DNA from: Helicobacteraceae bacterium
GTDB lineage: Bacteria > Campylobacterota > Campylobacteria > Campylobacterales > Sulfurimonadaceae
NCBI GenBank assembly: GCA_015488775.1
Contig: WFNF01000038.1
Location: forward strand, 1-46,768
DNA length: 46,768 nucleotides
Reading direction: 5' to 3'
A program made the translations under genes and the position numbers. Below, piece by piece: positions 3,268-45,790 of the stretch (its first letter is position 1; each line of letters starts with the position of its first letter). A model generated the notes under the pieces. It was not told the origin of the DNA, made no database searches, and worked only from the letters and a program-made list of their open reading frames with translations.

Positions 3268-3766
3268 TATTTTAGAAGATTTTATGGAAGACTGGGAAAA
3301 TGTTAAATATGCAATTCCTTTAGGTATTTTAGATGAAGATATTGATCCTGAATTTCCTTATGCTGGATTAGAAACAACATTATTTTTATTTTGGTCTATG
3401 CAAAAAGGGTTACTTACTGATATCGTAAGTAAACAAATTGATTCTTTTCAACAACAAACCCCTTTACGAAATCATGAAAATTCAATTTTAATGATGAAAA
3501 ATACCATTGGATTACAATTATTATCTATACACTATAGAGATGTAGGTAAAGATTTTGCTGTAGATTATATGTCTCAAACTGGTGAGTGGAAAAATAGTTT
3601 TTATAATGATTTATCAACCCTATATCCGAATATTAGAACTTATTGTGAAATACCAGAGTCGAATGAAGAATATACGAAAGTAGAAACATTTTTAGATAAG
3701 CGTTTAGCCGAATATCAGGAAGAATATGAGAATAAATTCTCCGATATTGAGTTAGAAAAATCTTAA
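3260..3766 (+). CDS. DUF7832-like small protein, probable immunity-cluster member
   Basis: A 168-residue acidic protein. Its layout matches my memory of the DUF7832-type family found beside polymorphic toxins: FPYAGLETTLFLFWSMQKGLL (compare the family's hydrophobic 'G-hhhhhW-hp-hLhs' helix), then a middle helix pair, then GKDFAVDYMSQTGEWKNSFYNDL (family pattern G-x-FA-x-x-Y-(Y/M) followed by a Y-x-x-D-Y-like stretch). The start overlaps the preceding gene by 8 bases and has an AAGGA RBS. Role as an immunity protein is inferred from context; the family assignment is moderate. Confidence 0.6.
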   Translation: MSDILEDFMEDWENVKYAIPLGILDEDIDPEFPYAGLETTLFLFWSMQKGLLTDIVSKQIDSFQQQTPLRNHENSILMMKNTIGLQLLSIHYRDVGKDFAVDYMSQTGEWKNSFYNDLSTLYPNIRTYCEIPESNEEYTKVETFLDKRLAEYQEEYENKFSDIELEKS

Positions 3767-3825
3767 ATATTTCAAGTGTAGACAAGCTTTAATACGATAT
3801 TTGAAAAACTTTAAAGGAAAAAATA

Positions 3826-4293
3826 ATGCCACGAGTTAGTTTAGATAATCTTATCGATATCTATTATCAAATACAAGATGCTTATAAAGATTTAAATTCT
3901 CAAGAAAAGATAGATGAATTGCTTAGAATAGAATCATTACATAAAACTACTATTATAATGTCCCCATATGTCAAGACCAATCCAGATATTTTTAAGAACC
4001 ATAAAAAGTATCATTTTTCTACACTAGAACCTATTGATTTAGAATTTCAACTAAACGATATCCTTAATACAAATAACGAGTTTATAGATACGCAAATATT
4101 TGAAGACTTGTTAATCTATACAGGAGAATATTTTCCTCTTTCTACTATAGGTTACTATTCTAAGAAAAAAGAGCATATTGATCAGTGGTTAAAATATCTG
4201 AGTGACAATAAAGATATGTACCGTTCTGGACGTTGGTTTAGATATGGTAAATATGTAGAAGATAAATCAATCATAAAATATAGGATAGCATAA
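3826..4293 (+). CDS. hypothetical protein in immunity cluster
   Basis: A 155-residue soluble protein with an AAAGGA RBS 8 bases upstream of the ATG. It is mostly helical with a beta-like middle (KKYHFSTLEPIDLEFQ) and an aromatic/basic C-terminus (YRSGRWFRYGKYVED). No recognised motif. It is convergent with the next gene, the two stop codons being adjacent (4293/4294). Its size, solitary nature and neighbours suggest an orphan immunity gene, but this is inference only. Confidence 0.5.
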   Translation: MPRVSLDNLIDIYYQIQDAYKDLNSQEKIDELLRIESLHKTTIIMSPYVKTNPDIFKNHKKYHFSTLEPIDLEFQLNDILNTNNEFIDTQIFEDLLIYTGEYFPLSTIGYYSKKKEHIDQWLKYLSDNKDMYRSGRWFRYGKYVEDKSIIKYRIA

Positions 4294-4932
4294 TTAAATA
4301 GTACCCTTTGGAAATTCTTCCCACATAAGCTGAGATGTAACCTCTGAAATTGGCACAAATACAACTGTTCTATCTTCAACCAAAGCCAGTGCATCAACCA
4401 TCTCTTTGTGTACAATAGGTAAAGTCGCACCATATTCAGAATATGGCAAATCAAAACATAATCGTTCTTCTAAAGGTAACTTTTCTAATATCTTCTGATT
4501 CAATTGATAAGAGTTAATACTTTCATATTTGCTTAGAGGATCTGCATTAGGGTCTAAAGTCAAGTCACTTTTTTCAACATCTAGCCAATTACTAGGCACC
4601 TGTTGAATCATTACTAACCAATATCCTTCAAAGTACTCTTCACCATCAGGAGAGGTAATATACGCTTTGTGTAACTTAATACATTCAAGATCATATTTAT
4701 AAAAATATTTCTCTTTTAAAGCATTAGAAATTAAAAGTTCTCCACCTATAATATACATACATTCTTGTGGACGTAAACCTGCATCCCAATTATCATCATC
4801 TATTTCCATATGCACTGGTCTAATAACATCTTCATCAAACTCGACATCCATATCATCTGCTTGATCTAAGTCAATAAAAGGTTTACGATTATCCCAAGTC
4901 ATTACATAATATTCATCATTTATATTCATCAT
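4294..4932 (-). CDS. putative immunity protein (Imm11/Imm43-like)
   Basis: A 212-residue acidic soluble protein starting MMNINDEYYVMTWDN, with a good AGGAAAT RBS. It shares the 'short strand - acidic loop - GGELLISNALKEK' layout of Imm11/Imm43-type proteins, where a half-buried helix (ISNxLKEK) precedes a central sheet. The end (VTSQLMWEEFPKGTI) is echoed by a decayed fragment about 1.1 kb away at 5399-5437, showing that a related gene once existed next door. A relic frame ends in TAATG overlap with this start, as toxin genes often do with their immunity genes. Family call is tentative; an immunity role is inferred. Confidence 0.55.
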   Translation of the reverse strand: MMNINDEYYVMTWDNRKPFIDLDQADDMDVEFDEDVIRPVHMEIDDDNWDAGLRPQECMYIIGGELLISNALKEKYFYKYDLECIKLHKAYITSPDGEEYFEGYWLVMIQQVPSNWLDVEKSDLTLDPNADPLSKYESINSYQLNQKILEKLPLEERLCFDLPYSEYGATLPIVHKEMVDALALVEDRTVVFVPISEVTSQLMWEEFPKGTI

Positions 4933-5095
4933 TAATTTCCTATTTTTAAATTATATGGACTATAATCAGGTAAGTTTGAAAAGTGCTTTTTAATACTTAA
5001 TCCTTTTTTCCAGCTCTATTTTGACAATCTATCCAATGTTGCATTAAACTCATCTCTAAAAGTTTGAGACCGTAAAATAAACTATATAAACCCAT
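4932..5095 (-). pseudogene. relic of a short reading frame upstream of the immunity gene (possible toxin tail)
   Basis: On the minus strand an ATG at 5095-5093 opens MGLYSLFYGLKLLEMSLMQ followed by HWIDCQNRAGKK, then hits a stop right after an A6 run (GGAAAAAAGG). Adding one A restores a continuous frame ending KKHFSNLPDYSPYN-LKIGN and a TAA that overlaps the ATG of the 4932 immunity gene (TAATG). The length, 164 bases, is one short of 55 codons, consistent with a single-base loss. The tail directly abutting an immunity gene is the usual position of a toxin C-terminus; the family is not recognised. A sequencing error in the A run is a simple alternative. Confidence 0.45.
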
Positions 5096-5107
5096 CTCTT
5101 AAGCAAT

Positions 5108-5155
5108 TTTAGAGGTGCTCTTTATTAAATTAATAATTTTTTTAGCTTATTATAT
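5108..5155. repeat. direct repeat A, copy 1
   Basis: About 48 bp starting TTTAGAGGTGCTCTTTATTA, nearly identical to copy 2 at 7147-7193 (one T of length difference and two mismatches near the right end). Both copies are in the same orientation, 2,039 bases apart. Confidence 0.85.
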
Positions 5156-5295
5156 TATTATTCATATAAATATAAAGTATCATCAGAAAAAATATACAAT
5201 AATAATTATGTTATTAATCTTTTTATCTTTGAGGATGAAAGCATGTGTATGTTGAAAAGATATAGCTTTTGTTGATGGAAAAAATAAGGACAAAA

Positions 5296-5437
5296 ATGCA
5301 AGATATAAATGAAGAGTACAAGTTTTTAACGTATAATCACGAAGATGATTGTTTGGATGATTTATTAACTGTTACTACTTCTTTAGAAGGTTGATCTTCA
5401 GCTTATGTGGGAAGAATTTCTAAGAAGTGCTTTTTAA
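5296..5437 (+). pseudogene. decayed paralogue of the 4294-4932 immunity-like gene
   Basis: ATG at 5296 opens MQDINEEYKFLTYNHEDD-CLDDL, resembling the N-terminus MNINDEYYVMTWDN of the 4294-4932 protein, and stops at 5392-5394. In another frame, 5399-5437 reads QLMWEEF followed by LRSAF and TAA, matching the QLMWEEF near the C-terminus of the same protein. The central ~150 codons are missing, so this is an internally deleted and frameshifted remnant on the opposite strand from the intact gene. Confidence 0.6.
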
Positions 5438-5480
5438 TTCAAGCTTACGCAATATAAAATTTAAAATTGCATATTTTTAC

Positions 5481-5552
5481 TTAAATAAAAGTTCTTAACT
5501 AAGAAATATATGTTTAGCACGTTCCAAATCTTCAAGCGTATCTATTCCAAAA
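5481..5552 (-). repeat. direct repeat B, copy 1: orphan copy of the kdsB 3' end
   Basis: A 72-bp segment identical except for one base to 7215-7286. On the minus strand it encodes the last 18 residues of KdsB (FGIDTLEDLERAKHIFLS) and the stop codon plus a few flanking bases. Sequence to either side is unrelated to kdsB, so this is a tail-only duplicate. Confidence 0.9.
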
Positions 5553-5583
5553 TAAGTAGTCTTGACATATTGGGACGCTATAG

Positions 5584-5619
5584 TGGATAAAAGTAAGATA
5601 ATTTACTAAGTTTTATCCA
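5584..5619 (-). terminator. hairpin at the end of the SUKH-TPR gene
   Basis: TGGATAAAA pairs with TTTTATCCA across an 18-base centre that itself contains GTAA/TTAC. It spans the TAG stop of the minus-strand gene. There is no clear U-tract, so termination is only suggested. Confidence 0.35.
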
Positions 5620-7132
5620 AAATTTTATCTCTTAGTTCTTTTGCATTTTCATCTTCAGGTTTAAGTTTTAGTGACTTTTCTATATATATTTTTGCTTCAT
5701 CATTGTTTTTTAAATGATTTTGAAGAAGAGCATAATTATAATGATAAAGTGCATTTTTTGTATCTTTTTTGATAGCAGTAAGTAGAAGTTCGCCTGCCTT
5801 GTCAAAATCTCGTCCAAGCTGATACATAAGAAGACAAGCATAACCATTACAAGCATACTTATAAGTCTTATCTATAGCTAAAGATTTTAAAAAATATTGT
5901 TCACTTTTTTCATAATCTTTAAGGTTAAATCTTAAAAATTTTGCATAATCTTTATAATCTCGTGCTTTATTATAGTCTGTTAATGACATAAGCTTTTCAT
6001 AATATACATCTACATAATTATCATCTTCTTTGTCTTCAATCAAGTCTATATATTGATATAACCAATACAAGTCAGAAGAATAATCAGCACGATTTTTCAT
6101 AAACATGTTTAGCTCTTCTTCACAGTCTTCAAGTTCTCTAAGAGTGTTTGAATAATAGTTTAGAAGATACCCATCATCTTCAGGATTTAGCTTGAATGCT
6201 TTTCTAAAGTAGATTATAGCTTCTTCAAAGTTACGACTTTCAAAAAGCTTATTTGCGATTTTACATAAGTCTTCAAAATTATTTGTGTCTAAATCTTCTG
6301 AGACAAGATTAGCAGATAGGCTGTCATCGTATTTTAAAAATTTATCAAAATTTTCATATATACTTGAGTTCATGTCATGTGAGAGATAGACCATGCGTAG
6401 TCTGTCTCTGTCTTGTTCATCAGGTAAGATACATATGAAATCTCCATTACCCATAGCAGTAGACATTAAGCCTTTTGTCAACTCCTTACTTATTTCACTG
6501 CTTTGCTTTTCATCAAACGCTAATAATGCTAACTCATAAAATTCGTTTAAATCATCTTCGTTATCACCGCGATACTCATTTGCAAAAGTGCTCATCAGTT
6601 GAAGTTTTGTTGCATGTTGTATAGCGTCATATCCACCTTGATACTCACCTAAATTTGCTATATCTTGTAAATCTACAGCGTACTCCATATCTCCAAACCA
6701 AAAACCATGGATAGCCCAAATATCTTTTAAAAATTGCGGATACTCTTTCCATTGAGAATTTTCAGTTATAGAACTTGGCATAATAGGGTTGAGATTTGGC
6801 TCACCACCGAAATAAAATAAGGCTTCACCATTTTTATCTTCCCCCACTAGGTATAAAGCACACCAATACTCTTTTTTAATAGCCTTTGCATATACTTTTA
6901 CAAAAGCTATATCTTTTACGTGTGGGATTATCTTTTGGAAAAAGTAATGTTTTTTTCCTAATGGAGCAAATAAAGTTTGCATAAATTCAGTTTCACTTAT
7001 ACCTTCATAGCTTTTCCAAGGGCAATCATCTGGTAGCTTATCTAAAGTTGCAAAATCTAAAAAGTCTTCTATATCATCAGCAATGTACTCTTTGATAGGT
7101 TTTGTTTTTTTATTAGGTGTTAAAAGTGTCAA
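5606..7132 (-). CDS. SUKH/SMI1-like and TPR repeat protein, putative immunity protein
   Basis: A 508-residue soluble acidic protein. The N-terminal half carries features of the SUKH (SMI1/KNR4) superfamily: a central block ending with GNGDFICILPDEQDRDR and VYLSHDMNSSIYENFDKFLKY near residues 228-275, matching the family's 'GDxhxhd...Vhhh.Hd...h..hFxxFL' end. Residues ~290-508 are TPR-like helical pairs (NFEEAIIYFRKAFKLNPED, NDEAKIYIEKSLKLKPED). SUKH proteins are common immunity proteins to contact-dependent and polymorphic toxins. The start is TTG, with AAGGA 8 bases upstream. It sits between the two copies of repeat pair A/B, so it looks like an acquired cassette. Confidence 0.7.
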   Translation of the reverse strand: MTLLTPNKKTKPIKEYIADDIEDFLDFATLDKLPDDCPWKSYEGISETEFMQTLFAPLGKKHYFFQKIIPHVKDIAFVKVYAKAIKKEYWCALYLVGEDKNGEALFYFGGEPNLNPIMPSSITENSQWKEYPQFLKDIWAIHGFWFGDMEYAVDLQDIANLGEYQGGYDAIQHATKLQLMSTFANEYRGDNEDDLNEFYELALLAFDEKQSSEISKELTKGLMSTAMGNGDFICILPDEQDRDRLRMVYLSHDMNSSIYENFDKFLKYDDSLSANLVSEDLDTNNFEDLCKIANKLFESRNFEEAIIYFRKAFKLNPEDDGYLLNYYSNTLRELEDCEEELNMFMKNRADYSSDLYWLYQYIDLIEDKEDDNYVDVYYEKLMSLTDYNKARDYKDYAKFLRFNLKDYEKSEQYFLKSLAIDKTYKYACNGYACLLMYQLGRDFDKAGELLLTAIKKDTKNALYHYNYALLQNHLKNNDEAKIYIEKSLKLKPEDENAKELRDKILDKT

Positions 7133-36632: not shown

Positions 36633-37820
36633 ATGAAAATATTGCATACTTCAGATTGGCACTTAGGACAAAGCTTTATGGGTAAAAGTCGCTTAGAAGA
36701 GCATCAAGCTTTTTTAGCTTGGCTTCTTGAGGCTGTAGAATCTGAAAATATAGATGTACTTATAGTTGCTGGTGATATCTTTGATACTGGTACTCCTCCA
36801 AACTATGCTCTTGAACTTTATTATAATTTTTTAACTAAACTAAAATCTTCTTCTTGTAAAAATATAATCATAACTGCTGGAAACCATGACTCTATAGCTA
36901 CACTAAAAGCTCCACAACAACTTTTAAAAGCACTTAATGTTCATGTAATTACCTCTGGTGATGAGGATGAAAATGAGATTATTAGTATATATAAAGATGA
37001 AAAACTTGAGGGTATTGTTTGTGCTGTTCCATTTCTAAGAGATTATGTTGTTAGGCAGTCTTTAAGTGGTGAGACTATAAAAGATAAAGAAAATGCTTTA
37101 TCTCTTGGAATAAAAGAGCATTACAATAATGTTTACAAAGAGGCCTTAGAACTTTGTAAAGAACAAAATATTCCTATCATTGCTACAGGGCATTTAACAA
37201 CAGTTGGAAGTAAAGCAAGTGAATCAGAACGAGATATATACATAGGTGGAACTTTAGATATAGATAGTGACTTTTTTGCAAAGAACTTTGACTATGTAGC
37301 CTTAGGGCATCTTCATATTAACCAAAGAGTAGGGCAAGAGCATGTTTGTTACTCTGGTTCACCTATACCTCTTAGTTTTAGTGAGTCTACTACTCAAAAA
37401 AAAGTAAATATTGTTGAGTTTAAAGATAAAGAAGTAAAAGTAAGTGAACTAGATATACCACTTTATAGACCTCTTTTAGTGCTTAGGGGAGATGTAGAAT
37501 CTATTGTTTACGAACTTGAAAAAATTGAAAACAAAGAGACATGGATAGAAGTTCATCTAAAAGATGACAACCCCGTGCATGCAAATCAACTTATACGAGA
37601 AAAAGCTACGGAGTTAGAGTTAATACTTTTAGCAGTGAAGATAGATAGAGTAGAGCAAGCTCTTCACTCATCAGACTTTGAAGTCATTAGCTTAGATGAA
37701 CTTAATCCATTAGAGGTATTTGAGCGTCGCATAGAACAAGACTGTTTAGAAGATGAAGAGTTTACTAAAAAATTAATCACAAATTTTAAAAACATTGTAA
37801 ATGAGGTTCAAAACTCATGA
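36633..37820 (+). CDS. sbcD: exonuclease SbcD (Mre11-like)
   Basis: Metallophosphoesterase subunit of the SbcCD nuclease that opens DNA hairpins and trims double-strand ends. The 395-residue protein has the phosphoesterase motifs MKILHTSDWHLG (1-12), VAGDIFDTG (~47-55), GNHDS, GHLTT and DYVALGHLHINQ (~223-234). Length is normal. The ATG has an AGGGA RBS 7 bases upstream, and it overlaps sbcC by 4 bases (ATGA). Confidence 0.95.
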   Translation: MKILHTSDWHLGQSFMGKSRLEEHQAFLAWLLEAVESENIDVLIVAGDIFDTGTPPNYALELYYNFLTKLKSSSCKNIIITAGNHDSIATLKAPQQLLKALNVHVITSGDEDENEIISIYKDEKLEGIVCAVPFLRDYVVRQSLSGETIKDKENALSLGIKEHYNNVYKEALELCKEQNIPIIATGHLTTVGSKASESERDIYIGGTLDIDSDFFAKNFDYVALGHLHINQRVGQEHVCYSGSPIPLSFSESTTQKKVNIVEFKDKEVKVSELDIPLYRPLLVLRGDVESIVYELEKIENKETWIEVHLKDDNPVHANQLIREKATELELILLAVKIDRVEQALHSSDFEVISLDELNPLEVFERRIEQDCLEDEEFTKKLITNFKNIVNEVQNS

Positions 37821-40800
37821 AAATACTTTCAATAAAAGCTTTAAATATCAACTCTCTAAAAGGTGAAACTGAGATAAACTTTGAAGAGCTTACTAAAGAT
37901 GGTTCTTTGTTCGCTATAACAGGACCAACTGGTGCAGGTAAAAGTACTATACTTGACATCATCTCTTGTGCATTATATGGACGAACTGCAAGACTAAAAA
38001 ATCCAGACTACTTGATGTCTAGGCATGCAGGTGAAGCTTATTGTGAAGTTGAGTTTGAGATTAAAACTAAGATGTTTCGTTCATCTTGGAGTCAAAGAAG
38101 AGCGCGTAATAAACATGATGGAAAGTTCCAAACTGCGAAAATGGAACTTTTTGATATAAGCAATGAAAAAATCATAACTCAAAAATCAAGAGAAGTTCCA
38201 AAAAAGATAGAGGAGCTTTCAGGTTTAGATTTTGGACGCTTTACCCAGTCTATGATGCTTGCTCAAGGTGGGTTTGATGCTTTTTTAAAGGCAGATGAAA
38301 AAGAACGATCATCTTTACTAGAAAAAATCACTGGTACACAAATATATGCAAATATATCCATAGCTGTATTTAACAAACATCGTGACCTAGTACAAGATAT
38401 GCAATCTGATCAAAAGGTTTTAGAGAATATTGATGTTTTAGATGATGAGATTGTAAAACAAAAGCAAAAAGAGCTTGATCAAAACATAAGCCTAAAGAAA
38501 AAAAGCGATGATGAACTTAAAGAGCTTACTTTAGCACTTAACTGGACTCAAAGACTCTCAGAACTTACATCAGAAAGTAAAAAGTATGAAGAGGAGTTCA
38601 TAGAAGCTAAAAAAATAAAAGAAGAAAATAAAAGCTCATTTGAAAAACTTGCCTTAGCTAACAGAGCATTAAATGTCTCATCAACTTTTAGTACACATGA
38701 ACAGTTACAAAAGAGTGTAAAAGCAGATAAAGAGGTATCAGCTAAATTTACTAATGAGTTAGAGACTTTAAAGCAAGAGATAAAAGAAAAAAGTGAAGCT
38801 TATGCTCTTGTCAAAAAAGAGTTTGAAAAAGAGAGTGCAGAGTTTGAAACACAAAACAAAAAGCTAAAATTGGCTCGTGAGATTCAAACTCAAGAGAAAC
38901 AAACTTTACAAAATATTAGTAAATCAAAATTTTCTTTAAAAGCTAAAAAAGAGAGTTTAAGTGAAACTACAAAATCTTTAGAGAGTATTTCTGAAAACTA
39001 CAATCATATAACTAAACAAATAAAGATAAAAAACACTTACCTACTTAATAATGATAAAGATGAAAACTTACTCTCTACTATAGGGATAATAAAACAGAAC
39101 ATCACTCAGTATAAAGAGGAAGAAAAAAACACTACTTCTACACAAAAAACTCTTAATGCTTTAAGTGCAAACCTGCAAACACAACAAACAAAGCATGATT
39201 TTCTTCAAAAAGAAGTTGATAAATTATCTACAATATTTAAAGAAAAAGAACTTGAGTATAAAACACTAGAAGATAACAGTTCCAACAACATAAAAGAAGA
39301 AGAGAATCTTCAAAAAGAGATAGAAAATACACAGTTTTTATCTAGAACACTTAAAAGTTATTTGCTTCTTACTAAAAAAATAGCTCAAGAAGTACAAGAG
39401 AGTGAAACTAACAGCATTACTGAAAAGTCTTTGCTAGAGACACAAACCGTTTTAGTGCAACATATAAGTGAAATAAAAAAGCATATAGAAACACTTAGAG
39501 AGAAAAAAGAGAAAGAACAACAACTCAAAAAGTATGAGGAAGATAGAAAAAATCTAATTGATGGTGAAGCTTGTTCTTTATGTGGTTCTACCAATCATCC
39601 GTATGTCGATGACATCTCAGATATACATATAGATGAGACAAACGCAAAGATAAAAAGTCAAGAAAAAGAACTAGAGGAAAAAGAAAAAAACTTAAGAGAC
39701 TTAGATTCACGCCTAGTTGTAGCACAAACAAAAATACAAAACTCAAAACTAGAACTTCAAAAACTAGATGTTGAGTTAGAGACTTTACTTGGTGTGTTTA
39801 AACAGTACTCTTTTGAACTAACAACTAATAGCGAGGTTAATCTTAAAGAAAAAGAAGAAGAGCTTACTCAAAAACTCCAACAACTAAAACAAAATCGTTC
39901 AAAAAAAGATGAACTTTTAAAAGAGAGAGACAAGGCAAGAGAAACACTGCAAGCTCAAGAAAAATCACTCAATGAGTTAAACATATCTTTACAAAAAAAT
40001 CTTAATGAGCAAGAGCAGTCCTCTTTAGCATTAAAATCAAGTCAAGAAAAGAGTGAGTCAACAATAAAAAGCCTAACTTCTCAATATAAAGAGTTTAGCA
40101 TAGAACTAGATATAAAAACATTAGACTCTCAGTATCAAGAACTTTTAAAAAGAAAAGAGTTGTACACTCAAACGCAAGAGACTTTAAAAGTTTTAGAATC
40201 AGAGTTAACTAGCTCTAAAGTAAGTAAAACAGAGTGTGAAACTAAATGCAACTCTATAAACCAAGAGATAAAAACATTGGACAAAGAGATAAAAAACTTA
40301 GAAGAGAGTATGTTTAAACTCTCTTCTAAACGCATAGAGATACTTAATATAGCCAATTTAAATACTCATGAAAAAGAGATTCACTCTAAGTATAAAACAG
40401 TTCAAGAGAAAGAAAGAAATTCACAAACTAAGTTAAATGAACTTGTAACAAAAAATGAAGAACGAACACTTCGTAAAAAAGACTTAGACTCTAAGATACT
40501 TGATGAAGAGAAAAAACTCAAAGAGTTAAGCTTTATACTTGAAGAACTATATAAAAAGAATGACTTTAAACAAATGCAAGAATTTAAAGATGCTATGTTA
40601 AGCACTACAGATAGAGAAAACTTATCAGCTTTATGTAAAAAGATAGATGATCAGTTCACTCAAACACAAACACTAAAATCTCAAACCTTAAAACAACTGC
40701 AAGAGCATCAAAAAGATCCTTTAACTACAAAACCTATGCAAGAACTAGAAGTCGTTCAGTCACTTCTGCAACAAAAAGTAGATGAGCTTTCTCAAAGTAT

Positions 40801-41395
40801 AGGTAGTGGCATAAAAGAGCTAGAACTAAACCAAAAAAATATAGATAATTTTAAAGAGAGAATAAACTCTTTAAAAGAGAAAGAAGAGATTTTTAAAGTT
40901 TGGGTAAAACTAAATGAACTTGTCGGTTCAGCAGATGGAACAAAGTTCAAAAAGTTTGCACAAGGTATAACTCTTGATCAACTAATAAACTTAGCGAACC
41001 AGCACTTAAGTGTTCTAAGTTCTCGTTACACACTAGCAAGAAACCAAGACAAACTCTTAGACCTTGAGGTAATAGATGCATTCCAAGGCAATGTAATCCG
41101 CCCAGTAAGTACGCTCTCAGGTGGAGAAAGCTTCATAGTAAGTCTTGCACTAGCTTTAGGTCTTTCAGAGCTTGCAAGTCAAAAAATATCTATAGACTCA
41201 CTCTTTTTAGATGAGGGCTTTGGAACTTTGGATGAAGAGAGCTTAGAGACAGCACTTAACGCTTTAAATCTTCTTCAAGGCTCAGGAAAGATGGTTGGTG
41301 TCATCTCGCATGTGGAGGCTCTAAAAGAGCGAATACCTTTACAGATAAAGGTTGTTCCTAATGGGGATGGCACTAGTTTTGTTGAGGTTATATGA
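37817..41395 (+). CDS. sbcC: exonuclease SbcC (Rad50-like ATPase)
   Basis: SMC-like ATPase partner of SbcD. The 1192-residue protein has Walker A GPTGAGKST (~35-43), a Q-loop region, two very long coiled-coil arms rich in Glu/Lys, a zinc hook CSLCGS (Cys586 and Cys589), the ABC signature LSGGESF and Walker B SLFLDEGFGTLD near the C-terminus. Length is within the family range (~1000-1200). The stop overlaps a small ATG frame that is probably a relic. Confidence 0.95.
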   Translation: MKILSIKALNINSLKGETEINFEELTKDGSLFAITGPTGAGKSTILDIISCALYGRTARLKNPDYLMSRHAGEAYCEVEFEIKTKMFRSSWSQRRARNKHDGKFQTAKMELFDISNEKIITQKSREVPKKIEELSGLDFGRFTQSMMLAQGGFDAFLKADEKERSSLLEKITGTQIYANISIAVFNKHRDLVQDMQSDQKVLENIDVLDDEIVKQKQKELDQNISLKKKSDDELKELTLALNWTQRLSELTSESKKYEEEFIEAKKIKEENKSSFEKLALANRALNVSSTFSTHEQLQKSVKADKEVSAKFTNELETLKQEIKEKSEAYALVKKEFEKESAEFETQNKKLKLAREIQTQEKQTLQNISKSKFSLKAKKESLSETTKSLESISENYNHITKQIKIKNTYLLNNDKDENLLSTIGIIKQNITQYKEEEKNTTSTQKTLNALSANLQTQQTKHDFLQKEVDKLSTIFKEKELEYKTLEDNSSNNIKEEENLQKEIENTQFLSRTLKSYLLLTKKIAQEVQESETNSITEKSLLETQTVLVQHISEIKKHIETLREKKEKEQQLKKYEEDRKNLIDGEACSLCGSTNHPYVDDISDIHIDETNAKIKSQEKELEEKEKNLRDLDSRLVVAQTKIQNSKLELQKLDVELETLLGVFKQYSFELTTNSEVNLKEKEEELTQKLQQLKQNRSKKDELLKERDKARETLQAQEKSLNELNISLQKNLNEQEQSSLALKSSQEKSESTIKSLTSQYKEFSIELDIKTLDSQYQELLKRKELYTQTQETLKVLESELTSSKVSKTECETKCNSINQEIKTLDKEIKNLEESMFKLSSKRIEILNIANLNTHEKEIHSKYKTVQEKERNSQTKLNELVTKNEERTLRKKDLDSKILDEEKKLKELSFILEELYKKNDFKQMQEFKDAMLSTTDRENLSALCKKIDDQFTQTQTLKSQTLKQLQEHQKDPLTTKPMQELEVVQSLLQQKVDELSQSIGSGIKELELNQKNIDNFKERINSLKEKEEIFKVWVKLNELVGSADGTKFKKFAQGITLDQLINLANQHLSVLSSRYTLARNQDKLLDLEVIDAFQGNVIRPVSTLSGGESFIVSLALALGLSELASQKISIDSLFLDEGFGTLDEESLETALNALNLLQGSGKMVGVISHVEALKERIPLQIKVVPNGDGTSFVEVI

Positions 41396-41532
41396 AAATA
41401 TTAGAAATTAGAAGTTAATTTTGTGTTGCATATGGAAACAGTTGCTTAGAATTGTATTATAAAGAGTATAAATTTAAGTTTCCACTCTGCACACCTTCAA
41501 ATTATGTTGGTGTACCATTTATGCTTAATTGA
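41392..41532 (+). pseudogene. short relic frame overlapping the sbcC stop
   Basis: ATGA overlap with sbcC opens MKILEIRS followed by TAA, then in the same frame FCVAYGNSCLELYYKEYK and FKFPLCTPSNYVGVPFMLN before TGA at 41530-41532. It resembles a small third gene in the operon carrying one in-frame stop. Its codons are AT-rich and no family is recognised; chance is possible. Confidence 0.25.
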
Positions 41533-41599
41533 TTATACGATTAAATACAAAAAAACTTTCTGATGTGATACATATTTACTTGTACCACAATCATGATAA

Positions 41600-42280
41600 T
41601 CAAGAAATATTTTTTACAATCAAAGTACTATTCTTTTTGCCTGTTAACTTTACGATAAAATCTTCTTTATTAATTTTGAAAAAATCTCCCCATGAGTTAA
41701 CACCATTTTTTTTAGATAAGAGCATGTTCTTATACGGACTTAATAAAGAACCAACCTTAGATAAGTGTGTAAAACCACTTTCATCTTTATGTTTATCTAT
41801 TAATTTTTTTATTTTTTGTATATTAGTCTCAACCATCTCTTTTTGGAAAGATTCTTTTTTTAACTGAATAAACGTCGTATAAGCATTACGTAATGCTTCT
41901 GGTGTCTTCTCTTCACCTAAACCCAATACTGTAAAATTATTAGCTTTTACTTCCATAGCTAGCGCTGTAAAATCACTATCACTAGATACAATTGCAATAG
42001 TGTCTACACTTGAGGTACAGATAGTTTTCATTACATCAATAACCATTTTGATATCTGCTGCATTTTTATAATGCGTGTTGTGTTTCACTTGTATTGCTTC
42101 TATAGCATATTCCTGTAAAACTTGACTCCATTTTAGACTTTTTGAGTTACTCCAGTCGTTATAAGCTTTAGATATTATCACCTCACCATGATATTCTAAA
42201 GATGAAAAAATACTTTGTAGATAACTAGCACTTACATTTTCACAATCGAAGAATATGGCGATTTTATTTTGTTTTAACAT
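41600..42280 (-). CDS. NYN (PIN-like) nuclease with C-terminal LOTUS/OST-HTH domain
   Basis: A 226-residue protein. Residues 1-130 form an NYN (Nedd4-BP1/YacP, DUF88/LabA-type) PIN-like ribonuclease domain with the acidic site intact: IAIFFDCEN (Asp12), KNAADIKMVID (Asp76), VSSDSDFTALA (Asp101, Asp103), then VLGLGEEKTPEALR. The tail (~150-226) fits a LOTUS/OST-HTH RNA-binding domain: SGFTHLSKVGSLLSP, and GVNSWGDFFKIN...DFIVKL. Such pairs are RNases acting on RNA in stress or defence. The start lies inside the pVip gene (7-base overlap) with AAGGGG upstream, so it is translationally coupled to it. Confidence 0.88.
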   Translation of the reverse strand: MLKQNKIAIFFDCENVSASYLQSIFSSLEYHGEVIISKAYNDWSNSKSLKWSQVLQEYAIEAIQVKHNTHYKNAADIKMVIDVMKTICTSSVDTIAIVSSDSDFTALAMEVKANNFTVLGLGEEKTPEALRNAYTTFIQLKKESFQKEMVETNIQKIKKLIDKHKDESGFTHLSKVGSLLSPYKNMLLSKKNGVNSWGDFFKINKEDFIVKLTGKKNSTLIVKNIS

Positions 42281-43140
42281 GCTCGCCCCTTTTTTATTGC
42301 ATTATGCTTATATCGCGAGAAATATTTAGATAAATCAAAATCAATAGATGAAAATGCTTCTTCAACAGAAATCTCAAGTATTGACTTACTATATGTATAT
42401 GAGTCATTTCCATTTTGATAAAACCTTCCATAAGGATCAAGCATTATGTACGAGTTTGTCATATCATCTTTTGACTCTGTATAGATTTTGGAGGATATAC
42501 TTTTATGATTATTCAAAAACGTTTGATACTCTTGATCTGTACAAAACATTTGAATAGTATTCACTGATAATGCTTGAAGCACTTTCCATTTATGTGGTTT
42601 TATTAAGTCAATAAAGTGACCCATAAACTCTGTATTGTTATAAGTATTTACGACCGTATTAATTTTAATAAGTATTTCTGGATGGATTAATCTAAACTTT
42701 TCTATAGAGGCTATCAACTTCGATATTTTCAATGTTTGATGTTTAGTCTCTCTACCAATAAGTACATTTGTCTTACTTTCTAAACTGTCTATGCTTACTG
42801 CAAAAATAGAGATGTACTTTGCATTCTCTTCAATAAAAGTGGTTGTAAGTTTTGAAGCATTAGTTATTAATGATATTTTGAATCCTATACGATATGCGCG
42901 TCTAATTATGTAGCTAAGATTTTTAGATAACGTAGGTTCGCCACCGGCAAGATTCAATCTAATTAAATACTCTGGATACTTATTTTTAAAATAGCTGTAT
43001 AATTTATCGAGAAAGATGTTAATATCTTTTTTAGATTGTTGTAGCTTCTTTTGATTGGTTCTTTGGTATTTTGCAAAACAGTAACTACAACTATAGTTAC
43101 ACTTCTCGATTATATGCCAATTTATTGTGATCTCTTTCAT
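42274..43140 (-). CDS. prokaryotic viperin (radical SAM ddhNTP synthase)
   Basis: A 288-residue radical SAM enzyme of the viperin family. Viperins convert CTP, GTP or UTP to 3'-deoxy-3',4'-didehydro nucleotides that terminate viral RNA chains. Visible: cluster motif CNYSCSYC (Cys14, 18, 21), LAGGEPTL (~64-71), FAVSIDSLESKTNVLIGR (residues 113-130; the viperin IDS and NVLIGR hallmark), KINTVVN (~159), WKVLQAL (~185), DQEYQTFLNNHKS, NSYIMLDPYGRFYQ (~229-242), SKSILEISVEEAF. These match human viperin block by block, with no amphipathic N-terminus. ATG has AAGGAG at 6 bases. The substrate nucleotide cannot be read off. Confidence 0.9.
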   Translation of the reverse strand: MKEITINWHIIEKCNYSCSYCFAKYQRTNQKKLQQSKKDINIFLDKLYSYFKNKYPEYLIRLNLAGGEPTLSKNLSYIIRRAYRIGFKISLITNASKLTTTFIEENAKYISIFAVSIDSLESKTNVLIGRETKHQTLKISKLIASIEKFRLIHPEILIKINTVVNTYNNTEFMGHFIDLIKPHKWKVLQALSVNTIQMFCTDQEYQTFLNNHKSISSKIYTESKDDMTNSYIMLDPYGRFYQNGNDSYTYSKSILEISVEEAFSSIDFDLSKYFSRYKHNAIKKGRAC

Positions 43141-43165
43141 GAGAACTCCTTGTAATAGATTAGTG

Positions 43166-43171
43166 TATAAT
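43166..43171 (+). promoter_or_regulatory. -10 element for the ankyrin gene in a divergent promoter
   Basis: TATAAT within GTGTATAATA, 34 bases before the ankyrin gene start. The same bases read on the other strand give TATTATAC, so the 64-bp gap with the pVip gene holds overlapping divergent promoters. Confidence 0.45.
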
Positions 43172-43204
43172 ATAAAATACAGGTTTTATTAGATAGGAAA
43201 TTGG

Positions 43205-45790
43205 ATGGACAAGAAAATTCAAAAAATAAAAACACTATTTGCTAGGTATAGAAAAAACGGCTATTTACTGGACTTTTTGGTTAAAGGTTTAGGTGTAGAA
43301 CAAAAGCAAGTTGAAGTACAGAAACGATATCAAAGATTTGTTAAAGAAGAAAATATTTCCAATCAAGAGTATCACGATACCATGAATACAATGGTTTATG
43401 ACATACTTCATTCTTTCTTTAAAGACAATGACAATAAAGCTTTTATATTTGTCGAAAGATTTATAAAAGAGTATTTCTTCTATATGAATATTTTTAAAAC
43501 AACAAATGAAACTCTACGGTGTTCACAAAAACAACTTGATTTTATTACCATTACTGCTGATTTTATACCTATGCTTAGTATATTAACAGTGGAGTTTGAT
43601 CAGAAAAATATTATAAGAGATATATTGCCTACCGAGCACTTTACATCTATACAAAAACTGTTTATACGAATAGAGCAGTCCTTTAGAATCAAAAACCAAA
43701 AGTTAGATAAATTATTATTTGAAATATTAAATCAAGATTCTGTGAAAGATACTGGATATGACACAATATTAAAAGACATAAACAATTGGTTGTCGGGTGA
43801 ACATGTGCCAGATAATAGACATATCTTAATGATTGTAAGTGAGTTAGCTTTACATTCCAAAGAATTTGATGAGAATGAGTTGCTTATCTATTTTAAGCTA
43901 TCAAAGGTTATTCAGAATACATATAATAGAGCAGTACATTATTTTGGAAAAGAGCTTACTCAGCTATTAATTGAACATTTTGTTTTTTTAATTGAATTAC
44001 TTCCCTATCATAATATTTGTCCAACAGTTGGAGAGTTTGAAAGAAGAGTAAATAATAAGTATCCTCATGCAGGAAAAGATTTTATTTCTAGGTACAGTAA
44101 CATGTACTTATATGTGACTTTTGATCTATATACAATCATCACAGAGTCTATACGTAAAAAAGAGGATTATTATGATTCAACTCAGAAACAAAGATATCTT
44201 AAACTTATTAAAGAAAATTATAAATATCTAGAGATCTTATATAAAATAGAGCAAGAGGTGTTTTTCCAAGAGATACATACAATTTTGCCCATCCGACTAT
44301 TCATGAAACAGATGTCTGTAGATGCACTAAATGATATACATGAATTGCCAAATGTACGCAGTGAGAAATTGGCCTCTATGTATATTTTAACATTACTTGG
44401 AGCAGAAAAAACAGCTGAACAAGAGACATCATTTCTAAAAGAAATAAATCAATTTATAAAGTTATATGACATAGATGAGGATCCCTATATAGCATTTATT
44501 CAAGCAAGATATTATGCTCAAAAAAGAAATTATAAAAAAGCTACAGAGCATTATTTAATTGCTTTGAAATATGGTAAGAATTGTATGGGGGTACACCTTA
44601 AAAGTATCATCAATGAAGGATTAATAGTATCTGCACAGGATACTAGAAAGAAGCAGATAGACCTAATTAATGCTAAAAGTCCATTTACAAAGTTTTATAA
44701 AGAAGCTTATTTATACAAGCTTATTGATTATTTGCCAGATGAATTAAATTTGCATTTTTTAAATGATATGAAAAAGAAATTTGATTTTAAATATAAAAAC
44801 TTATTTCCTAATACAAAGAAAGCAGACCCCAATAAGATGGTACGTAATCTTGGTATTGTTGACACCAAAAAGATTCAAAGAATAAAACCAGACCTAGAAA
44901 GGCCTAATAAACTTATTCGCAAATTGTATACAAACGATCTACCACAATTAATGCATTTTGTAGGTAAGCTTGATTATGACAATGTTATAAAACTGATTTC
45001 AAAAGGTGCAGATGTAAATTATGTAAGAGCCAACGACAACCATACAGTACTTATTGCTCTAGTAGAAGGTACCGTAATAGGGGCACTTCCAAAGGAACGA
45101 AGTACAGAAGAAAATAGATATAAAATAGCTGAGTTGTTAATTCCAGCTATGGAGATTGAAATATTGAATAAAAAACTTGTAAAAAAACAAGAAACGGCAT
45201 TATCATATGCAATAGTCAATGGATACACTGAAATTGTTAAGCTACTAATAGACTATGGAATAGATTTAGAACAAAAAGCCACTTGTGATGAAATGTCAGC
45301 TCTATATCTATGTATTCATTGCATAGGTTTTTCAAATAAAGACAAAATATTTGATTATGAAAACCCTGATTTTCATGTGGTAAATCCATTAGAGTCAAGA
45401 AAAGAGATGAAAAAAATTATAAAGGCGAATGTCTCTCCTGTGACAACTTTTGATGAGGATGTTAAGAAAATGCTAGACATGCAAGAATCTCCCGCATTTC
45501 AAGCTATTCAAGATGAAATCTTAAAGAATGAACTGGAAAAGTACAAAAACAACCAAGAGGCGTACTACCAGATATTTGATTTGGTTTTGCAAGCAGTAAA
45601 GAAAATAGATATTCCACATAGATTCAATATTACCCCTCTTATATTTGCAACCGAATTAAACGAAGTCGAAATAGTTCGTAAACTTTTAGATAAAGGTGCA
45701 AATCCTAATTGGAATACTGATGATTATTATACGGCATTGGATTATGCAGAAAGAAACAAAAACAAAAAGTTAGTGGAACTATTGGAGTAA
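43205..45790 (+). CDS. large helical protein with C-terminal ankyrin repeats
   Basis: An 861-residue soluble protein, starting MDKKIQKIKTLFARYRK with RBS AGGAAAT. Residues ~1-560 are all-helical, including a TPR-like stretch (ASMYILTLLGAEKTAEQE; ARYYAQKRNYKKATEHYLIA). Residues ~580-861 hold ankyrin-type units: DYDNVIKLISKGADVNYVRAN, QETALSYAIVNGYTEIVKLL, TPLIFATELNEVEIVRKLLD and YYTALDYAERNKNKKLVELL. It has no enzymatic motif, signal peptide or membrane segment. It is divergent from the pVip-NYN pair. A scaffold, sensor or anti-phage effector is possible; family unknown. Confidence 0.75.
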   Translation: MDKKIQKIKTLFARYRKNGYLLDFLVKGLGVEQKQVEVQKRYQRFVKEENISNQEYHDTMNTMVYDILHSFFKDNDNKAFIFVERFIKEYFFYMNIFKTTNETLRCSQKQLDFITITADFIPMLSILTVEFDQKNIIRDILPTEHFTSIQKLFIRIEQSFRIKNQKLDKLLFEILNQDSVKDTGYDTILKDINNWLSGEHVPDNRHILMIVSELALHSKEFDENELLIYFKLSKVIQNTYNRAVHYFGKELTQLLIEHFVFLIELLPYHNICPTVGEFERRVNNKYPHAGKDFISRYSNMYLYVTFDLYTIITESIRKKEDYYDSTQKQRYLKLIKENYKYLEILYKIEQEVFFQEIHTILPIRLFMKQMSVDALNDIHELPNVRSEKLASMYILTLLGAEKTAEQETSFLKEINQFIKLYDIDEDPYIAFIQARYYAQKRNYKKATEHYLIALKYGKNCMGVHLKSIINEGLIVSAQDTRKKQIDLINAKSPFTKFYKEAYLYKLIDYLPDELNLHFLNDMKKKFDFKYKNLFPNTKKADPNKMVRNLGIVDTKKIQRIKPDLERPNKLIRKLYTNDLPQLMHFVGKLDYDNVIKLISKGADVNYVRANDNHTVLIALVEGTVIGALPKERSTEENRYKIAELLIPAMEIEILNKKLVKKQETALSYAIVNGYTEIVKLLIDYGIDLEQKATCDEMSALYLCIHCIGFSNKDKIFDYENPDFHVVNPLESRKEMKKIIKANVSPVTTFDEDVKKMLDMQESPAFQAIQDEILKNELEKYKNNQEAYYQIFDLVLQAVKKIDIPHRFNITPLIFATELNEVEIVRKLLDKGANPNWNTDDYYTALDYAERNKNKKLVELLE

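Follow-up and report, generated by a model that had tools for sequence, protein, structure and literature searches.

Viperin is an antiviral enzyme common to bacteria and animals, and its products are chain-terminating nucleotides. In bacteria, hicA and relE genes adjoining the gene for prokaryotic viperin (pVip) have already been published, and the pVip-HicA and pVip-RelE operons make up classes 9 and 10 of the mBio 2024 article, which cites Bernheim 2021 (PMC10865869). RNA cleavage as a partner of ddhNTP production has been raised in the literature only as a question (PMC10865869). Bacterial proteins joining an LK-nuclease (NYN) domain to an OST-HTH domain were described as being without conserved neighbourhoods to known RNA-processing systems (Anantharaman 2010, PMC2848206), and single-stranded RNA is reported as the target that the NYN domain of MARF1 cuts (PMC10226599). 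Searches of an open-access library gave no paper on bacterial viperin that mentions NYN, and the text of the mBio article is silent on it (PMC10865869).

A viperin gene overlapped by a NYN-LOTUS gene

The window analysed here, a stretch of 46,768 nucleotides from a Helicobacteraceae bacterium with a 2.7 Mb genome, harbors an island of three genes. On the reverse strand lie pVip (42274..43140, 288 aa) and, directly behind it, an intact NYN-LOTUS RNase gene with an ATG start (ORF 42280..41600, i.e., 41600..42280; 226 aa), while a large ankyrin-repeat gene (43205..45790, forward strand, 861 aa) diverges from pVip across an intergenic region of 64 bp (43141..43204) that separates the two starts. 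The island is flanked by sbcC (37817..41395, forward strand; an ORF that borders the island and lies outside the system) and by a gene for a CoA-binding-like protein, the latter read by eye. The 3' end of sbcC borders both the window island (41395-41600) and a defence island in an Aliarcobacter locus, L045 (L045 1741-1995; integrase nearby), which suggests that it is an insertion hotspot.

The gene at 43140..42274 is identified from its profile matches as a true prokaryotic viperin, with a PADLOC pVip match of 4e-89 and 303 bits against the curated NCBIfam viperin model NF038283, which it passes at a cut-off of 180. The cysteines of its radical-SAM CxxxCxxC motif (C14/C18/C21) are invariant among ten aligned pVips. 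Its closest pVip, 58% identical, is that of genome G451, where the gene is accompanied by HicA and an ankyrin gene.

The downstream protein is assigned to the NYN (LK-type) family with a predicted RNase fold. Its nuclease domain (residues 6-140; 41861..42265, reverse strand) matches Pfam NYN PF01936 at 5e-32 and 111.8 bits (cut-off 24.2), and the catalytic acids, invariant in the family (D12, D76, D101 and D103), are retained. An AlphaFold2 model (pLDDT 84.5) retrieved with Foldseek the NYN domain of MARF1 (5yaa/6fdl) and VPA0982 (2qip) at E-values of 1e-8 to 6e-7, those of MARF1 alone being 3e-8 to 6e-7. A LOTUS tail had been proposed in a sequence-only reading of this DNA, and the tail (about residues 150-226; 41603..41833, reverse strand) proves to be a real though diverged LOTUS/OST-HTH domain: taken alone it scores 14.2 bits with OST-HTH PF12872, below the cut-off of 23.8, while a profile of the relatives' tails gives 39.4 bits (best of 999 shuffles, 10.5) and hhalign 97%, with a fold match to 2kpm on the predicted structure and matches to 2kzv and 2kpm by profile. 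The tail may nevertheless be dispensable, since it is shortened by an in-frame TAG in a relative, the NYN of G629. The closest relatives of the window NYN, which share about 40% identity with it, are encoded by stand-alone genes of Campylobacter- and Helicobacter-type genomes. The host's own NYN-LOTUS gene, located elsewhere in the genome (L170), belongs to a different NYN clade, hence the copy linked to viperin is foreign to the host's family, the island having probably brought it in.

The NYN start codon (ATG, 42280-42278) precedes the pVip stop codon (TAA, 42276-42274) within an overlap of 7 nt (42274..42280, reverse strand, ATGTTAA). The earlier statement that the ATG lies 7 bases before the pVip stop thus holds as regards a start inside the end of pVip, while the 7 is the length of the overlap and the A of the ATG lies 4 nt before the stop codon. 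The Shine-Dalgarno sequence, described in the same reading as good, bears this out: AAGGGG, within pVip (42291-42286, reverse strand), has a predicted duplex energy of -7.0 kcal/mol, which is reached by 1.9% of random 20-mers from the window and ranks among the stronger of the 32 gene starts listed for the window. Bacterial genes often overlap by a few nucleotides, and the pVip/NYN overlap is therefore by itself not beyond chance. What is beyond chance is that the overlap recurs, with 11 nt, in G629, a member of a second genus, and that most of the pVip loci surveyed carry an RNase gene in this position, the slot. The recurrence in G629, which belongs to another family, likewise upholds the reading of pVip and NYN as one overlapping operon; that the ratio of the two proteins is set jointly may be presumed from the overlap.

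The RNase slot behind pVip and its occupants

For comparison, 93 other pVip loci were assembled: one genome scan contributed the best 80 of its 302, plasmids nine, and viral contigs and genome searches two each. The viral contigs yielded no pVip in a single-sequence scan; an alignment scan then gave the two. In this set, which includes the best 80 of 302, a HicA-like gene lies ≤400 nt downstream of pVip in 54 of the 93 loci, usually overlapping the pVip stop, mostly by 4 nt, and the catalytic His is kept in all 44 slot HicAs that were aligned. About 40% of the surveyed loci (again with the best 80 of 302 included) have no recognised slot RNase, hence pVip needs none. In L120 (Colwellia), the slot gene is ParE/RelE-like by the appearance of its sequence, which agrees with the sole ParE_like match in the scan.

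Several other neighbours of pVip were observed. In L035, L036, L090, L101, L109 and L112 (Pseudoalteromonas, Psychromonas), the gene behind pVip encodes 422-436 aa and usually overlaps it by 4 nt; the L035 example has DUF4145, Sel1 and SEC-C, and the gene is possibly another slot occupant. Upstream of pVip and in its orientation, a family of ~700 aa is encoded in L058, L063, L065, L069, L078, L081, L091, L111 and L119, and one of ~630 aa in L055, L068, L071, L076, L084, L110 and L122; both occur mostly in HicA-type loci, and a PADLOC scan of two examples from these families gave no match. In L042 and L043 (Helicobacter rappini/bilis, about 3356-5826), pVip adjoins a gene pair that by eye is OLD-type ATPase/TOPRIM-like.

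Among the close pVip relatives of the window, HicA and NYN stand in for one another. The pVip tree groups the window with G451, L044 and L045. The slots of G451 and L044 hold HicA, overlapping pVip by 11 and 14 nt, respectively, and both loci have the divergent ankyrin homologue. In L045, which is without the ankyrin gene, a NYN gene broken by frame changes directly follows pVip. G629, found by searching the Arcobacter group specifically, after the pVip tree was built and hence absent from it, has the divergent ankyrin gene, pVip and the overlapping NYN; its NYN is 45% and its pVip 55% identical to those of the window, so that the full arrangement with NYN is present in two families. Further NYN-type loci outside Campylobacterota may lie beyond the best 80 of 302. 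A pVip operon with NYN is accordingly a variant, rather than a plain member, of the pVip-RNase type, its slot RNase being neither HicA nor RelE.

Among the three NYN-type loci, only the window has a fully intact NYN, L045 keeping a broken remnant and G629 carrying the TAG; as two of the three are damaged, the gene may be weakly selected for, or a burden. The NYNs of the window and L045 fall into one clade of the NYN tree (98/89) but are not sisters, which does not support their being one vertically inherited pair; NYN recruitment may therefore have occurred more than once. That a mobile NYN gene simply hitch-hiked behind pVip by chance, with no joint function, would fit the abundance of NYN-LOTUS genes, which occur in 104 of 249 Campylobacterota genomes and on many plasmids. 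It would also fit L082 (1234-3345, Pseudomonas sp. ZH-FAD), where pVip and HicA are followed 190 bp on by a NYN-LOTUS gene next to a radC-type gene; with HicA already in the slot, this locus was set aside as a pVip-NYN locus and is probably a coincidence. The same overlapping position in G629 and the remnant in L045 argue against hitch-hiking, the rough chance of three NYN placements behind pVip in 12 loci being 2e-9 (kinship uncorrected), as does the fact that the slot is generally an RNase slot, and we consider it the least probable of the explanations weighed.

HicA has a fold different from that of NYN and, to our knowledge, no taste for modified 3' ends, so that the property shared by the slot's occupants is RNA cleavage as such. 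This bears on the earlier proposal that NYN recognises RNA which ddhNTPs have stalled or terminated and, by cutting it, clears terminated transcripts, a proposal to which the operon overlapping pVip and the LOTUS tail, RNA-binding by family (PMC2848206), lend some support. A specificity of NYN for such RNA finds no support in view of the HicA slots in 54/93 other loci (best 80 of 302 included), among them that of the sister G451, so that close relatives use an unrelated enzyme in the same slot. The truncated tail of G629 also speaks against it, and both NYN and HicA would be expected to cut internally, where the 3' end need not be seen; the proposal is thus improbable. Since unrelated RNases, the PIN-like NYN and HicA, occupy the slot, what it requires in common would seem to be an endonuclease acting on RNA in general rather than one recognising ddhNTP ends. 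Alternatively, the RNase could be a feedback regulator that is not directed at phages and holds down the level of pVip by cleaving its mRNA or transcripts close by, as co-translation from one mRNA would put it beside the message. Unrelated RNases would then each need the same mRNA target, however, and the loci without a recognised RNase show no obvious compensation, which makes feedback regulation very unlikely.

The divergent ankyrin gene

The sequence-only reading made no mention of the 861-aa ankyrin gene (Pfam Ank_2, 5e-19), whose product may regulate the module or serve as its sensor. Homologues 41-46% identical diverge from pVip in three other Campylobacterota (L044, L180 and L222), and the spacer measures 64 bp in the window, 68 bp in L044 and 64 bp in L180. 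By slot content, the divergent gene accompanies HicA in two other Campylobacterota pVip loci (G451, L044) and NYN in one (G629). Among 397 Campylobacterota genomes, 8 have pVip and 7 the ankyrin gene, and 4 possess the two together (hypergeometric p 2e-6). The window, G451 and L044, three of these 4, have an ankyrin gene of full length that diverges from a standard pVip. The fourth, the Helicobacter-type G353 (L183 1292-4658), has a shortened ankyrin frame beside a diverged pVip, and a further Helicobacter-type genome, G381 (L224), has a decayed pVip. The ankyrin gene had no match in viral contigs, and a search of plasmids gave only weak matches of the Arcobacter group.

In proteobacteria, 22 pVip loci (from the set including the best 80 of 302) have a divergent gene of 618-961 aa that forms one similarity cluster; L053, L060-L062, L070 and L100 are examples. 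The members tested match PDLC02908, the PADLOC model 'Ankyrin', over its full length at 770-1268 bits, hence the proteobacterial gene is already catalogued. The window protein matches this model over its ankyrin part only (28 bits); comparison of the N-terminal halves of the Campylobacterota and proteobacterial proteins gave 70% with hhalign (E 4e-5), against 0.1% for a reversed control, and the window protein is thus classed, from sequence comparison, as a remote homologue of the PDLC02908 proteins. No DNA-binding domain was recognised in it, and an AlphaFold model built from two sequences was poor (pLDDT 39).

The ankyrin gene belongs to the pVip-RNase unit. HicA is present in 22/22 proteobacterial ankyrin-type loci, and together with the window, L044, G451 and G629 a slot RNase is found in 26/26 ankyrin-type loci, 24 with HicA and 2 with NYN (both counts from the set including the best 80 of 302). 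The corresponding count for the other loci is 31-33/70 (Fisher 6e-8 to 2e-7), where p, like the hypergeometric one above, overstates independence as the loci share ancestry.

This association also fits the main rival explanation, according to which the module is an abortive-infection system and its RNase, whether NYN or HicA, a suicide toxin that the ankyrin protein or pVip restrains in an antitoxin-like manner until infection or ddhNTP build-up. HicA normally requires HicB. No HicB is among the families listed (25 of 36) for the genes flanking the slot HicAs, and neither HicB nor RelB is among those listed for the slot operons. Ankyrin repeats, moreover, are protein-binding domains, and the broken NYN copies would suit a costly gene. 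Against this, one ankyrin family would need to restrain two unrelated RNases, and in many HicA-type loci the large gene upstream is a different one, or none was recognised. We regard a restrained toxin as rather unlikely, and the earlier suggestion that NYN is held back until infection as possible.

Proposed working and comparison with known systems

The overall explanation that we favour, with middling confidence, is that NYN replaces HicA as the co-translated RNase effector of an ankyrin-controlled pVip defence operon. In such an operon, where the control, the RNase activity, the interplay with ddhNTPs and the very defence against phages are all putative, the ankyrin protein, our guess for a regulator or sensor, might sense infection or keep the 64-bp divergent promoter region quiet. 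Upon infection, pVip would make 3'-deoxy-3',4'-didehydro-NTPs, causing transcripts to end early, and the RNase, its translation coupled to the 3' end of pVip, would cleave RNA, so that blocked synthesis and decay together would empty the RNA pool needed by the phage. A bolder version, which we consider unlikely, is that ankyrin-type viperin systems are three-part systems with an obligatory output that includes a swappable RNase, in which the ankyrin protein, or viperin with ddhNTP, licenses an otherwise toxic RNase; viperin would then not only produce chain terminators but also trigger or gate the destruction of RNA.

The occurrence of HicA, reportedly RelE and now NYN-LOTUS in one slot suggests that RNA cleavage is a functional partner of ddhNTP production and that one phage-defence module combines terminator production and RNA cutting as its two halves, the cutter being exchangeable, and the HicA/NYN exchange makes the function of the slot open to a clean swap test.

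The window locus resembles the pVip-HicA and pVip-RelE operons (PMC10865869), for which joint anti-phage action has been proposed, in that an RNase gene lies beside, and often overlaps, pVip, but theirs is HicA or RelE, in contrast to a NYN-LOTUS protein of PIN-like fold. With PADLOC 'Ankyrin' PDLC02908 it shares a large divergent gene beside pVip with C-terminal ankyrin repeats, although the proteobacterial members match at full length and the window protein by HMM in the ankyrin part only. The domain architecture is that of the bacterial LK-nuclease(NYN)-OST-HTH proteins (Anantharaman 2010, PMC2848206); unlike that set, the window NYN sits in a recurrent viperin operon, which gives bacterial NYN-LOTUS proteins a concrete biological setting. 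The eukaryotic NYN-LOTUS RNases MARF1 and DNE1 likewise join a NYN fold to LOTUS, but in another context and with other partners, the RNase role of the window protein being predicted. HicA and RelE beside pVip were already known and the ankyrin component underappreciated, while a NYN-LOTUS protein in the pVip RNase slot is new with respect to the open-access literature searched.
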